From Longimicrobium sp. (GTDB taxonomy: Bacteria > Gemmatimonadota > Gemmatimonadetes > Longimicrobiales > Longimicrobiaceae): 56,961 bases of DNA. The notes beneath the pieces are model-generated. The model made no database searches, had not been told where the DNA came from, and saw nothing but the letters and a program-made list of their open reading frames with translations. This document shows positions 21,776-27,666 of this stretch, one piece after another. Positions within the stretch are counted from its first letter, which is position 1, and each line of letters starts with the position of its first letter. The DNA is taken from positions 1 through 56,961 of the forward strand of contig DASVWD010000117.1 in NCBI GenBank assembly GCA_036389795.1. Reading direction: 5' to 3'. Made by a program: the position numbers and the translations under genes.

Positions 21776-22423
21776 TTCTGGTCTTCTCAATATGGATCTT
21801 CCGCCGCCGCGGGCCGTCCGGAGCCGCTGCCGTGGATTGCGGCGGTTCGTGCAAAACACGGCGGCGTCCTGCAATCCACCGGCGGCGAAGCGCGGCACGG
21901 CCGCGTCGAAAGCTCGCACCCGGGAGAAAAGGATGGGAACATCCGTCGTAGCGCTGTATCGAATCTTCCTGCATTGGAAAAAAACCGAACGGAGCCGCCG
22001 GGGAGAGCGCCTCCCGATCTTGCTGTCCCCGCGCGGATCCCGCCGTGCGCGCACCCTGGCCGGCCGTTTGCTCTACAGCGCCCCCGTTTCACCGGAACGA
22101 CCCATCGACCGACACGACGGACGCCGGCCCGGCGGTATGACACGGGGTCGGCGTCGGAAGCCGTCCGCAGCTGGTGGAAGTCGTTTCCGTCCAAGCGGTT
22201 GCTGCACGCCACGCGGTCGCGGTCCCGCAGTGCACTTCAACCCCGAATGTCGTCTTTCGGGCTGCAATCCGTATACGGTATTCACCAGCGTGTGACGCGG
22301 CGCCGGACCGAGTCGTCAGCCCCACCGCATCACCCTGACAGAGCGATCCACCGGCGCCCGAGCTCCGGCCGGCGTCCGCGTCCGCAGCACTGCCGGGACG
22401 TGATCCCCCACACCGCCGATCCA

Positions 22424-24628
22424 ATGTCCGTCACGAGCCCCGAAGCGATCCGCATCCCCGCGCTCGGCCCGCACGCCCCCGCGTCGCAGGCCACGCTGGA
22501 GCGGCTGGCCGCCTTCGCCGAGCGGATGCTGGAGGTCCCCGTCTCGCTGATCTCCCTGGTCGACGGCGAGCGCCCCGTCTCGAGCCCCGAGGGCAACGGC
22601 GACGCCTGGAGGGCGCGGCGCCAGGCCCCGCTCGCTCGCTCGCTCGACCAGTACGCGGTGCGCTCGGGGCGGCCGCTCCTGATCGAGGACGCGCGCATCC
22701 ACCCGCTGGTGCGCGAGAACCCGGTGGTGTGGATGGGCGAGGTGGCGTACGCCGGGGTGCCGATCCGCGCCGCCGACGGGAGCGTCACCGGGAGCTTCTG
22801 CGCCATCGACACCCGCCCGCGCGCCTGGACCGACGAGGAGATCGACCTGCTGGACCACCTGGCCGACTTCGCCGCGCTGGTGATCGAGCGGCGGGCGAAC
22901 CCGGGCGCGTCCGAGGCGACGTTCGTGGGCGCGCTGGGCCCCACGCGCGGCCGGCTCAGCTTGCGCATGCTGGAGAAGGCGGTGGAGACGATGCAGATCG
23001 GCGTCACCATCACCGACGTCGAGGGGCGCATCCTCTACACCAACCCGGCCGACGCGCGGATGCACGGCTACCGCATCGAGGAGCTGCGCGGCAAGCACGG
23101 CCGCATCTTCGCCCCGCCCGAGAACGCCCGGCCGATCGAGCGCACCCGGCTGGAGGAGGTCACCAGCTGGAGCCGCGAGACGGTGAACCTGCGCAAGGAC
23201 GGCTCGCTCTTCCCCGTGCTGCTGCGCTCCGACGTGGTGAAGGACTCGCGCGGCCGCCCCGTGGGGCTGGTCACCTGCTGCGAAGACATCACCAGCCGCA
23301 AGGAGCTGGAGCGGCAGCTGCTGCGCAACGCCTTCTTCGACTCGCTCACGGGGCTGCCCAACCGCGGCCTCTTCACCCACCGGCTGGAGATGGCGGTGGA
23401 GCGCGCCCGCCGCGGCGAGGCGAGCTTCGCGGTGGTGATGGTGGGGCTCGACCGCTTCAAGGTGGTCAACGAGGGGCTGGGCCGCCGCGCCGGCGACGAG
23501 CTGCTGGGGAAGGTGGCCGAGCGGCTGCGCTGCTGCGTGCGCCACGCCGACGACCTGCTGGCGCACATCGGCGGCGACGAGTTCGCGCTGCTCCTGGACG
23601 GGATCGAGGGGATCGGCGAGGCCACGCGCGCGGCCACCTGCGTGCAGGAGGCGCTGGCGAGGCCGTTCGACGTGGGCGGCACCGAGGTGTTCACCGGGGC
23701 CAGCATCGGGATCGCGCTCAGCTACTCGGGCTACGAGCGCGCCGAGGACGTGATGCGCGACGCCAACCTGGCCATGTACCGCTCCAAGGACGCGCACAAG
23801 GGGCAGTACGAGGTGTTCGACCGCGACATGCACGCGGCGGCCATGACGCGCCTCAGGCTGGAGATGGACCTGCGCCGGGCGCTGGAGCGCGGCGAGCTGA
23901 GGGTGCACTACCAGCCGATCGTGTCGCTGGAGACGGGGCGGATCGCGGGGTTCGAGGCGCTGGCGCGCTGGGAGCACCCCGAGCGCGGGCTGATCCTCCC
24001 CGACGACTTCATCCCCCTGGCCGAGGAGACGGGGCTGATCCTGCCGATCGGGATCTGGGTGCTGGAGGAGGCGTGCCGCGAGCTCAAGCGCTGGCAGGAT
24101 CGGGCCGGCGCGCGCCGGGCGCCGCTCACCATGGCGGTGAACCTCTCGGCCAAGCAGTTCGCGCAGCCGGACCTGGTGGACCGGGTGGAGCGGGTGCTGC
24201 GCGGGACGGGGGTGGCGCGCGGGACGCTCAAGCTGGAGATCACCGAGAGCGTGATCATGCAGCACACCGACTCGGTGACCGACACGCTGCACCGGCTGAA
24301 GGCGCTGGGGGTGCAGATCCACATCGACGACTTCGGCACCGGCTACTCGTCGCTGGGCTACCTGCACCGCCTCCCGCTGGACGCGCTCAAGATCGACCGC
24401 TCGTTCGTGCGCCCGGGCGCGGGCGAGGACGCGCTGCACCTGGTGCGCACCATCGTGGCGCTGGCGCACGCGCTGGGGGTGGCGGTGGTCACCGAGGGGG
24501 TGGAGACGGAGGAGCTGCTGAAGGAGCTGCGCACGCTGCGCTGCGAGTACGGGCAGGGCTACCTCTTCTCCCGGCCCCTCTCGAAGGAGGCCGTGGAGGC
24601 GCTCTTCGCGGAGGATCCGCGCTGGTAG
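22424..24628 (+). CDS. GAF-PAS-GGDEF-EAL cyclic-di-GMP signalling protein
   Basis: A 734-aa cytoplasmic protein. The domains are GAF (about 20-157), PAS (about 183-295), GGDEF (about 300-465; intact GGDEF at 383-387) and EAL (about 480-725; EALARW at 511, NLSAKQF, EITES, DDFGTGYSSLGYL and TEGVET all present). Both the cyclase and phosphodiesterase active sites look complete, so it may be bifunctional or one half may be regulatory. The inhibitory RxxD site before GGDEF reads HADD, so product inhibition may be lost. The sensory input is unknown. The frame is open farther upstream, but that part has no domain homology, and the ATG at 22424 begins the coherent protein. Confidence 0.93.
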   Translation: MSVTSPEAIRIPALGPHAPASQATLERLAAFAERMLEVPVSLISLVDGERPVSSPEGNGDAWRARRQAPLARSLDQYAVRSGRPLLIEDARIHPLVRENPVVWMGEVAYAGVPIRAADGSVTGSFCAIDTRPRAWTDEEIDLLDHLADFAALVIERRANPGASEATFVGALGPTRGRLSLRMLEKAVETMQIGVTITDVEGRILYTNPADARMHGYRIEELRGKHGRIFAPPENARPIERTRLEEVTSWSRETVNLRKDGSLFPVLLRSDVVKDSRGRPVGLVTCCEDITSRKELERQLLRNAFFDSLTGLPNRGLFTHRLEMAVERARRGEASFAVVMVGLDRFKVVNEGLGRRAGDELLGKVAERLRCCVRHADDLLAHIGGDEFALLLDGIEGIGEATRAATCVQEALARPFDVGGTEVFTGASIGIALSYSGYERAEDVMRDANLAMYRSKDAHKGQYEVFDRDMHAAAMTRLRLEMDLRRALERGELRVHYQPIVSLETGRIAGFEALARWEHPERGLILPDDFIPLAEETGLILPIGIWVLEEACRELKRWQDRAGARRAPLTMAVNLSAKQFAQPDLVDRVERVLRGTGVARGTLKLEITESVIMQHTDSVTDTLHRLKALGVQIHIDDFGTGYSSLGYLHRLPLDALKIDRSFVRPGAGEDALHLVRTIVALAHALGVAVVTEGVETEELLKELRTLRCEYGQGYLFSRPLSKEAVEALFAEDPRW

Positions 24629-24651
24629 CGAGTAGAACAAGTGCACGCATC

Positions 24652-24690
24652 AAAAGCCCGCCTCCGCGATGTGCGCAGGCGGGCTTTCTC
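24652..24690 (+). terminator. Rho-independent terminator after the GGDEF-EAL gene
   Basis: AAAGCCCGCCT and AGGCGGGCTTT form an 11-bp stem ending in a T-rich tract, 24 bp past the stop. It marks the boundary at which base composition drops toward 50% G+C. Confidence 0.88.
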
Positions 24691-24925
24691 GTTCCTTCAT
24701 GTGAGGATATTGAACTCACTAGGCCCACGGTCCTGTTTAACCACCACTATCCCACTCCGACAGCCAAAGGGGGAGACAAAGGTCCTCTAACGAGAGAGGC
24801 TTCGCGCTCGTGAAAAATCGGTGAGAAGATTACCACCTGTCTTGCTTACGCGGATACGTGAATGCTATCCTTACGCACCAGCAAGACTGGTCGAGGTCTA
24901 CCTTGTGAGCGAGAGAGAGCTGACT

Positions 24926-25663
24926 GTGAGTTATGTTAAGCCGATCCTTATCGAAATCTATTCTGAAACCCACTTTGAGTCTGGTAGCTTTCCTCCCGAT
25001 CAATTCTTCGATGTTGTACCACGACTGAAGGAGATCGGGTTTTCCGAGGTCGAGATTGGAGAGGTCGGACTCATTGCCGTTGATGCCGAAGAGCAACAAG
25101 TTACCCACTCGAATGTGCCGCGGATTCGCTGCTGGACTAAGGATCGGTCACGGCTCGTTCAACTCTCCGAAGATGTGGTTGTTGTAAATCTAGTAGGTGA
25201 ATATCCCGGCTGGGATGCTTTCAGGGACCTGTTTTCCTCAGCACACGACACTCTCCCCGACCCGCTCGTATCTCGAAAAGTCGAGTCCCTATCTCTAAAC
25301 ACGATTGACAGACTTCGTGTGCCTCGACAAGGCTATAGGCTTGGTCGATACCTCGCTTGCGGGGGTAAATTCCTTCCGGAGTGGTACAGTGAGTCCACGG
25401 AGGCAGTTGATATCACCTTAGGACGCGGGATTCTACAAGAAGATGGGTTCAATCGACAGTTTCGGTTCAAAGTTCGAGTGAAAGCGGAGGTCTCAGCCGA
25501 GATCCGTTCTACTTTTCACGATCTCGTTCAAGCGCAGTTGAGTCTACATAAGGCACTCGAGAAACTTCACGATGAATCCTCGAGAGCCTTTGAGGAGATG
25601 ATCACTAACGAGACCCGGCATTCCGTCATGGGAGGAGAGAAGAGCTATGCCAATAACCGCTGA
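24926..25663 (+). CDS. TIGR04255-family-like protein, first gene of a low-GC cassette
   Basis: A 245-aa product from the GTG at 24926 behind GAGAGAGAG. The frame is open to 24821, but the chosen start places the family's characteristic Pro-x-x-x-Glu beta strand (KPILIEIYSETHFES) at the N-terminus, as in TIGR04255 proteins. Later landmarks are RIRCWTKDRSRLVQLSEDVVVVNLVGEYPGWDAF, then VESLSLNTIDRLRVP, and a C-terminal helical FHDLVQAQLSLHKALEKLHDESSRAFEEMI. The family is sporadic and functionally uncharacterised. Codon use is much less G/C-ending than in neighbouring genes. The stop overlaps the next start by 17 bp, implying coupled translation. Confidence 0.72.
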   Translation: MSYVKPILIEIYSETHFESGSFPPDQFFDVVPRLKEIGFSEVEIGEVGLIAVDAEEQQVTHSNVPRIRCWTKDRSRLVQLSEDVVVVNLVGEYPGWDAFRDLFSSAHDTLPDPLVSRKVESLSLNTIDRLRVPRQGYRLGRYLACGGKFLPEWYSESTEAVDITLGRGILQEDGFNRQFRFKVRVKAEVSAEIRSTFHDLVQAQLSLHKALEKLHDESSRAFEEMITNETRHSVMGGEKSYANNR

Positions 25664-26198
25664 GCCTAAAACCGACGTGGCGATCCACGATTTCATTGAG
25701 GAGCTACCAGTTTCCTACGCTCACCTACCCGGTGAACTGACTATACAAACTCCTCATGATCTCTCGATCACTACTCCGTTGCTTAGCGCTACGATCAATT
25801 TCCACTCCGAATCGATAGCCGCAGCGCGATTGGAGCAGATGAAGTCCGCTGCAGTGGCTGAGTTGGAGCGTTACGCCCGGTATCGGCGCGGGTGGGATGG
25901 CTATTCGGGGGAGCCATTTGCGCGTAAGCTGATCGACGATAGCATCAGGATTATCAGAGTAGCAGCAGCCTTCTTTGCAGAGGCTGGAGTACTTCCGACA
26001 GAGTTGACGACCGGGCCCGCAAGTGATGGATCCTTGGATATCGAGATTAGGACAGAGTCGAAGCGGCTGATTCTCACACTCTATCCTAACAGCCGAGAGG
26101 TTTACGTCTACCGAGAGGACGATGGAAACGCATCCGAGGAAGTCCGCAGCTTTTCACGGCCTCTTTTGGTCGAACAGCTTCTTTGGCTGGTTAGTTAG
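25647..26198 (+). CDS. Unknown protein with GWDGY motif, second gene of the cassette
   Basis: A 183-aa protein with GGAGGAG about 9 bp before the ATG. Residues 57-115 are a predicted helical block with a YRRGWDGYSGEPF motif (82-91) followed by a helix. Residues 117-155 form a probable beta region with DGSLDIEI and LYPNSREVYVY. This arrangement (GWDG, then Pro, then DGxIxxE, then a C-terminal strand) recurs in uncharacterised bacterial proteins in my memory, but I cannot name a Pfam family. The low-GC codon use matches genes 1 and 3. No catalytic motif is visible, so a structural, antitoxin or adaptor role is only speculation. Confidence 0.65.
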   Translation: MPITAEPKTDVAIHDFIEELPVSYAHLPGELTIQTPHDLSITTPLLSATINFHSESIAAARLEQMKSAAVAELERYARYRRGWDGYSGEPFARKLIDDSIRIIRVAAAFFAEAGVLPTELTTGPASDGSLDIEIRTESKRLILTLYPNSREVYVYREDDGNASEEVRSFSRPLLVEQLLWLVS

Positions 26199-26202
26199 GC
26201 GT

Positions 26203-26601
26203 GTGTTTCAACGCCTATGGAAAGAGGTTCCTGGACCGATTCCTGATCGAGAAATACTTTGGAGATCAATCTACAAACGAGACCAGTTATATGCTGACGG
26301 AAGCATCAAACCAGCGTTCTTTCGTGATCGTAAGGGACTGTCGTGCGATCTTGCGCGGTTCAGTACGGTTGAACGGTCACGGAGAGGCTACGGCCATCCA
26401 CCGCAATGGCCAGATGAGTCTGGGTTGGTGGAGTTTACCGTAAAGGCGGTTCGGAACAATGATAGTGATGTTGAGCATCGTCCCACTCGCGAGCCCTTCA
26501 TAAATTATTCGCATTGCCAATTCACGTCACAACTCGGAAGCGGTCAAGCAGAGAATTTAGCTAAATCGGTCGAATTTCGCGTTCGGCCACGACTAAGGTA
26601 A
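26203..26601 (+). CDS. Unknown protein, third gene of the cassette
   Basis: A 132-aa protein from the GTG at 26203, only 4 bp after the preceding stop. An in-frame start at 26122 would overlap the second gene by 77 bp. The body, DREILWRSIYKRDQLYADGS then IKPAFFRDRKGLSCDLARF and a later VEHRPTREPFINYSHCQF, follows a pattern (Ile/Leu, DGS, AFxDxxGLS, then V-H-P, then N-x-x-H) seen in small uncharacterised proteins encoded next to similar partners. No catalytic site is evident. Overlapping frames make the start uncertain, but the motif-bearing frame is convincing. Confidence 0.6.
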   Translation: MFQRLWKEVPGPIPDREILWRSIYKRDQLYADGSIKPAFFRDRKGLSCDLARFSTVERSRRGYGHPPQWPDESGLVEFTVKAVRNNDSDVEHRPTREPFINYSHCQFTSQLGSGQAENLAKSVEFRVRPRLR

Positions 26602-26619
26602 AGTCTTCGAAGAAACCGG

Positions 26620-27666
26620 TCAGTGAGACTTGCCAGGTAAGTCTCCATTTCTATGCAACCCGGGTAACGAGATCACCCACGCTCCCTCCAGTACCACCTC
26701 CCCCAGCTCCGACGGCGACAGCGGGTCGTCGCGGTCGATGACGACCCAGGCGGAGGCGTCGCCGCGCGGCAGCACGCCCTCCACCTTCCCGTCGAACGCC
26801 GTCCCGTCCTCCCGCGTCACCGGTGCCCAGCGGCCGCCGTCCGAGTCCAGCACGCCGAGCGCGGAGCCCACGACCGGGCCGTCGCGCACGGCGTCGGGCG
26901 AGTCCTCGGCCGCCGCGGAGAAGAGGACCGCGCCGCCCAGCGCCGCCGCGTCGGTGAAGGTGAGCGGCAGCCCGCCGAGCCCGCCCAGATCGTACTGGAC
27001 GACGTCTTCCGGCGCGGGCGGCGGCGAGGCGGCTGGGTCGCGCAGGTAGGCGAGGAGCGCGGAGAGGCCGAGGTCGCACGAGGCGTTCACCGGGATGAGC
27101 CCGCCCCGGGGCGCGCCGTTGCCGCGGTTGAACAGCCGCAGCACGCCGCCGAGCGCCACCGCGCCCTCGACGTTCAGCTCGCTGCCGGAGAAGCCGCGCG
27201 CCGCGCGCAGGCCGGCATAGAGCGCGGAGGCGTCGACCACCCGCACCCCGGGCCCGGCGCCCCCCGCGTCGCGCAGGACGGCGATCCGCTCGCGCAGGGG
27301 CGTGGAGCCGGAGCCGAAGGCGAGCAGCAGTTCCTCCCCGCCGTCCGCGACGGCGACGCACGCCTCCAGGTCCAGCTTGAAGCGCTTGTTGCCGCGCAGG
27401 TCGTCGAACTGCCGCAGCCCGCCCTCGCCCGCCGGCAGGGTGACGACGTCCGCGCCGCCGCCCGCCGGGTCGAGGAGCACCACGAAGTTGGCGTCGTCCT
27501 GGATCACCGCGATGCGGCCGCCGAAGCGCGTGAGCCCCGAGGCCGCCCGCACGTGCGCCGGCCGGTCGAGCGACGGGTCGGCGCCGGCCGCGTAGCGCAG
27601 CGGCTCTGTGCGCACGAGGCGGGCGGCGAGCGCCGGGTCGCGGCGGACGGGGATGCGTGGCGGCAT
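26620..27666 (-). CDS. DUF6929-like protein, probable beta-propeller
   Basis: A 348-aa product from the ATG at 27666; a GTG at 27720 would add 18 residues and has GAGGAG immediately upstream, so the start is open. The sequence has repeated short beta-rich blocks (SGLTRFGGRIAVIQDDANFVVLLD, KLDLEACVAVADGGEELLLAFGSG, NVEGAVALGGVLRLFNRGNG, GKVEGVLPRGDASAWVVIDRDDP) resembling DUF6929 proteins, which look like propellers. There is no signal peptide. High-GC composition returns here, marking the right edge of the low-GC island. Function unknown. Confidence 0.65.
   Translation of the reverse strand: MPPRIPVRRDPALAARLVRTEPLRYAAGADPSLDRPAHVRAASGLTRFGGRIAVIQDDANFVVLLDPAGGGADVVTLPAGEGGLRQFDDLRGNKRFKLDLEACVAVADGGEELLLAFGSGSTPLRERIAVLRDAGGAGPGVRVVDASALYAGLRAARGFSGSELNVEGAVALGGVLRLFNRGNGAPRGGLIPVNASCDLGLSALLAYLRDPAASPPPAPEDVVQYDLGGLGGLPLTFTDAAALGGAVLFSAAAEDSPDAVRDGPVVGSALGVLDSDGGRWAPVTREDGTAFDGKVEGVLPRGDASAWVVIDRDDPLSPSELGEVVLEGAWVISLPGLHRNGDLPGKSH

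Follow-up and report, generated by a model that had tools for sequence, protein, structure and literature searches.

A divergent low-GC three-gene module combining a TIGR04255 protein with a predicted ADP-ribosyltransferase-like protein in Longimicrobium sp.

Organization of the locus and its insertion site

The analyzed window comprises the whole stretch of 56,961 nt of Longimicrobium sp. contig DASVWD010000117.1. It contains three small ORFs on the forward strand, which form one unit between a GGDEF/EAL gene (21974-24628) and a gene on the opposite strand (27720-26620). The G+C content of this trio is 51.3% compared to 73.5% in the remaining window, in agreement with the low-GC stretch named in the original prediction. 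The strong terminator proposed to precede the trio was also found. An intrinsic-terminator-like hairpin is located at the end of the GGDEF/EAL gene (24653-24687, + strand), with a folding energy of −25.7 kcal/mol and a z score of −3.88 against shuffled sequences. In the interval between this terminator and gene 1, the + strand yielded no sigma-70-like promoter.

Gene 1 (24821-25663, + strand) encodes 280 amino acids if translated from the GTG at 24821. The start codon is probably the GTG at 24905, which is favored by a GAGG sequence with a spacing of 8 nt and by the resulting protein length of 252 aa, identical to that of the TIGR04255 model. Gene 2 (25647-26198, + strand) encodes a protein of 183 aa, which was recognized by a profile match (A4). 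Its WDGY motif is invariant in the gene 2 alignment (A9). Gene 3 (26203-26601, + strand) encodes 132 aa from the GTG at 26203. An alternative in-frame ATG at 26122 would result in 159 aa and an overlap with gene 2, but the GTG located 4 nt past gene 2 is the likely start according to the sequence. The last 17 bp of gene 1 are shared with gene 2, and with the GTG start the gap between the genes 2 and 3 amounts to 4 bp. The arrangement of overlapping or nearly contiguous genes and the protein motifs quoted before are thus present as described.

The trio occupies a variable accessory site (24629-26697) that is flanked on either side by a gene conserved in the genus, as determined from the alignment of the flanks and the sequences of the gaps. 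The gene downstream of the trio is conserved throughout the genus. Three congeneric genomes (G004, G005 and G006) have the two flanking genes as well, with VapBC-type genes in place of the trio between them. The interval equivalent to window positions 24584-26698 consists of one or two VapBC-type pairs in these genomes (L068 in G004, L069 in G005, L067 in G006); G005 and G006 have two copies in tandem. The pairs of antitoxin and PIN-domain genes were recognized by reading the sequence, without a profile. The presence of VapBC pairs in the same interval identifies the site as a spot for accessory modules, with the trio as one occupant. In the 60 genomes nearest to this one, no close relatives of gene 1 or gene 2 were found. 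The assignment of the trio as an accessory module, as suggested earlier, is well supported by its foreign composition and by the VapBC modules that congeners carry in its place.

Conservation of the trio and its alternative partners

Gene 1 is a true member of the TIGR04255 family, as predicted. It matches model TIGR04255.1 with 60.8 bits (E-value 1.8e-16; cut-off 30 bits) over model positions 2-250 of 252. The distribution of this family is sporadic; among 249 genomes of the phylum, 31 contain a member. For the genes 2 and 3, nothing above chance level was obtained in NCBIfam, Pfam, PHROGs and PADLOC. Single-protein searches with the window proteins yielded no match in viral contigs, and those with the gene 2 and gene 3 proteins no match in plasmids. 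Phage records contained no TIGR04255 match for the query used.

Within the phylum, the gene 2 profile gave matches in 17 of 249 genomes, and 14 of the 24 matches adjoin a TIGR04255 gene. A genome of the same order and another family (G220) carries the complete set of TIGR04255 gene, gene 2 and gene 3 in the same order. Since the window copy of the trio is divergent, other phyla were searched with a DNA pattern for the gene 2 motif [ND]WDGYGA in 84,980 species genomes. At least 80 loci were obtained, about half of which are chance matches within unrelated proteins and were left out. At least 37 genuine relatives of gene 2 were identified, at least 25 of them directly downstream of a TIGR04255 gene. 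For at least 22 of those 25 loci, one of them partly masked, a gene 3 relative follows directly downstream and completes the trio; since the scan selects on gene 2, these co-occurrence figures are conditional on its presence. According to the record titles, the full trios span at least nine phyla in the same gene order, including Bacteroidota, Chloroflexota, Desulfobacterota, Campylobacterota, Acidobacteriota, Cyanobacteriota, Nitrospirota and Gemmatimonadota as well as alpha-, beta- and gammaproteobacteria. The original prediction was to be abandoned if the genes 2 and 3 did not accompany TIGR04255 proteins in other genomes. They do accompany them, so the cassette reading survives, and the expected conservation of the set in unrelated phyla was found as well.

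The protein distances of the three genes co-vary among 23 trios (Mantel r of 0.79, 0.78 and 0.80; p = 1e-4), which indicates a common history rather than contact, since shared vertical descent would yield the same correlation. Among the matches listed, the G+C content of the trio is lower than that of its own flanks at 24 of 25 loci, by 6.4 points on average. It is nearly certain that the unit is real, conserved and mobile. It is apparently an unstudied unit, and no mention of the name TIGR04255 was found in the literature searched.

The gene 2-3 pair is also combined with other partners. In Hymenobacter plasmids (L111 and L112) it is located directly behind a DUF4209 gene, a family described as a predicted HEPN RNase (PMC3710099). 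The DUF4209 genes of both loci appear HEPN-like with an RNxxxH motif; in L112 this gene and gene 3 both look frameshifted. In a Rhodococcus plasmid, an unrelated N-terminal domain is fused to gene 2, which corresponds to the PADLOC candidate PDC-M32. Gene 2-3 pairs were also found alone, behind unrelated housekeeping genes. In two Bacteroidales loci (L160 and L190) such pairs lie in or beside capsule-type loci with genes for a CDP-glucose 4,6-dehydratase and an UpxY antiterminator.

Likewise, TIGR04255 genes were found with unrelated partners. In G044 (L055:4935-6792), a TIGR04255 gene is followed by an ORF of 188 aa and then by a RES-domain toxin gene (45 bits, cut-off 23), the only RES-domain gene of that genome. 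In the Vibrio parahaemolyticus plasmid CP063527.1 (L238:158-2105), the order is TIGR04255, an ORF of 179 aa and a zeta toxin. The RES and the zeta triad are represented by one example each, and a zeta-toxin search over the genomes gave matches in all 14 controls too. A triad on a Crinalium plasmid, which appeared right by annotation, was rejected, as neither its second nor its third gene is related to the genes 2 and 3. In several Gemmatimonadota, the TIGR04255 gene is followed by a gene for an HTH protein and one more ORF. An HTH gene follows TIGR04255 in the loci L048, L049, L050, L078, L081 and L082. The third gene in four of these (L049, L050, L078 and L081) encodes a protein that contains a Q/H-x-C-D motif and is about 300 aa long, so that this is another TIGR04255 triad that recurs. 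The genome of the window itself (G000) contains 11 RES-domain genes, which is a large number for one genome; none of them adjoins the trio.

Predicted folds and conserved residues

In pairwise searches, the gene 3 family divides into several groups. The gene 3 of the window forms one group with those of G220, L123 and L128. Local profile comparison links this group to the main group with an E-value of 3.6e-5 and to three further groups with 1.3e-5, 1.3e-7 and 3e-6. The family shares only about 20% identity, and three residues are nearly invariant in 27 sequences: Arg17 (26 of 27), Ser46 (26 of 27) and His102 (27 of 27), numbered according to the ortholog of locus L157. In the single exception for Arg17, the respective stretch is missing from the sequence. 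The gene 3 of the window retains all three residues in alignment A8, with the Arg codon at 26263-26265 (LWRSI), the Ser codon at 26341-26343 (GLSC) and the His codon at 26512-26514 (YSHCQF), all on the + strand. By eye, they are also kept in the relatives from the Hymenobacter and Rhodococcus plasmids. The near-invariance of exactly these positions in such a diverse family suggests that an active or binding site has been retained.

The structure of the L157 ortholog was predicted with high confidence (pLDDT 93.7, pTM 0.86). In VIA-align, this model was most similar to Tpt1/KptA, a tRNA 2′-phosphotransferase (Z 8.3, 3.0 Å, 96 residues), followed by AvrPphF ORF2 (6.7), a RES toxin (4.5), the heat-labile enterotoxin A chain (4.2) and NarE (3.6). 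The best 20 rows all belong to the ADP-ribosyltransferase (ART) superfold, whereas the next row had a Z of 2.5 and unrelated folds did not exceed 2.5. An ART-like core fold is thus predicted for the ortholog, and the gene 3 of the window is linked to it by the profiles. A Foldseek search with gene 3 gave no match below 0.001 in the PDB or in viral models, and sequence-profile searches of solved structures yielded nothing usable for any of the three families.

The R-S-E and H-Y-E catalytic triads were not found in the gene 3 family. The conserved set is R-S-H, with His in the place where ARTs usually have Glu. The three residues fall on strands 14-19, 45-49 and 102-106 of the L157 model. From the order of the elements, without superposition, we infer that these correspond to the active-site strands of ARTs. 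Based on the model, gene 3 is the likely ART-like effector of the unit.

The predicted structure of gene 1 (pLDDT 75) is poorly modelled before residue 35 or so, and its fold is ambiguous. The top Foldseek match was an AdoMetDC prozyme (6.8e-5, TM 0.27). The top VIA matches were guanido kinases, but a guanido-kinase-like fold was not adopted, since the Z of 8.6 is too little above the background of about 6.9.

Proposed function and related systems

The layout of small coupled genes fits that of toxin-antitoxin systems. In two TIGR04255 triads the third place is taken by a known toxin family, which together with the predicted ART-like fold points to gene 3 as the effector, to gene 2 as its partner and to gene 1 as the controlling component. 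Gene 3 would use NAD+ to ADP-ribosylate a cellular target, or would deplete NAD+. Gene 2, encoded directly upstream, may be the cognate neutralizer (antitoxin) or an adaptor. The TIGR04255 protein may sense a trigger, e.g., phage infection, and release the effector, a role analogous in layout to that of CmdC in CmdTAC. The predicted ADP-ribosyltransferase-like nature of gene 3 makes the unit look like a toxin-antitoxin-type or phage defence system, and this fold and the triads ending in RES or zeta tilt the balance somewhat toward a toxin-antitoxin-like or defence function. In its full form, the reading of a horizontally acquired three-gene toxin-antitoxin-like module, probably anti-phage, with an ART-like effector is considered probable, if only just.

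The closest working analogue is CmdTAC, which combines a chaperone that senses the phage capsid with an ART toxin that modifies mRNA (PMC11618068). The two share a layout of three genes with an ART-fold effector, an antitoxin and a third controlling component (PMC11618068), roles that are predicted or proposed in the present case. The window system is nevertheless not a member of CmdTAC. The gene order differs, the controlling gene belongs to TIGR04255, and a SecB-like chaperone is lacking: gene 1 has no SecB match in Pfam, and the Pfam matches of the three genes include no SecB-like family. RES toxins likewise have an ART fold and deplete NAD+ (PMC12204516). The trio resembles Xre-RES modules in its small downstream protein with a predicted ART fold (Z 4.5 for the ortholog model), and the TIGR04255 triad of G044 ends in a real RES gene. 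It differs in the number of genes (three, not two), in the lack of a Pfam RES (PF08808) match for gene 3 and in the lack of an HTH or DUF2384 match for gene 2.

The fold similarity to Tpt1/KptA, whose solved structures are the nearest, could also mean that gene 3 handles RNA, as an enzyme akin in fold to tRNA 2′-phosphotransferase, and that the trio is an operon for RNA repair or processing, not a toxin module. The similarity is confined to the C-terminal lobe; with 132 aa, gene 3 is too short for the N-terminal lobe of KptA. Profile comparison with KptA (hhalign) gave an E-value of 0.29 or worse, i.e., no sequence similarity, and there was no match to the Pfam family PTS_2-RNA. Furthermore, the patchy low-GC distribution and the exchange with RES and zeta toxins are unlike housekeeping RNA repair, and this explanation is regarded as improbable. 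A similarly small probability is given to an ART-like fold without catalysis, in which the three proteins would form a structural or regulatory complex. The His at the position of the catalytic Glu and the ambiguous fold of gene 1 are consistent with it, but it is precisely Arg, Ser and His that are nearly invariant in a family of about 20% identity.

The toxin-antitoxin-like character could also be the entire function. A chromosomal, self-maintaining three-part addiction unit without an anti-phage role would fit the site shared with VapBC modules, the related units on plasmids and the lack of TIGR04255 matches in phage records for the query used. Against this stands that triggered control can be indicated where a toxin is coupled to a third component, as in CmdTAC (PMC11618068), and that restriction-modification (RM) or BREX-type genes lie beside some trios. 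A purely selfish unit is thus considered unlikely. In L134 a type IIG RM gene is located directly upstream of the trio, and in L186 a PglZ gene lies beside it. In total, 152 PADLOC families were matched in 108 genes flanking trios and 87 in 108 control genes, which is not claimed as an enrichment since both lists contain generic families. Proximity to known defence genes, named as a check in the original prediction, holds for individual loci, but general enrichment is uncertain compared to the control, and a role of the trio in phage defence is plausible.

As a tentative extension of the preferred reading of a toxin-antitoxin-like module, TIGR04255 proteins might be the common controllers of a whole class of toxin modules that have three parts and interchangeable effectors (an R-S-H ART-like enzyme, RES or zeta, among others). 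Gene 3 might found a new Arg-Ser-His ART clade that occurs in most bacterial phyla and acts in phage defence. For the TIGR04255 family, leading a conserved trio, and sometimes triads with known toxins, suggests a role that can be tested. An active gene 3 would be an NAD-using effector of wide distribution, with Arg-Ser-His as its unusual signature.

The earlier description of the system as undescribed biology applies to the window proteins, which match no PADLOC model, but not fully to their relatives, which overlap with PDC-M32. In the core of this phage defence candidate, which consists of two genes, the C-terminal part of PDC-M32A is related to gene 2 and PDC-M32B to gene 3. A gene 2 relative (P0006) matches the C-terminus of PDC-M32A with 8e-13, and that of G220 matches its C-terminal third only. 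A full-length match to PDC-M32A including the N-terminal domain was not found, and the genes 1-3 of the window gave no match to it. PDC-M32B was not matched by the gene 3 of the window, its closest relative (P0005) reaching 7e-4. In PDC-M32A an own N-terminal domain is fused to the gene 2 part, whereas the window contains a separate TIGR04255 gene. The best reading of these sequence comparisons is that the trio is probably related to, yet different from, PDC-M32, to which an active gene 3 would add substance. The literature mentions PDC-M32 in prophages of Sinorhizobium (PMC12429752), and the Rhodococcus PDC-M32B likewise shows the Arg, Ser and His.
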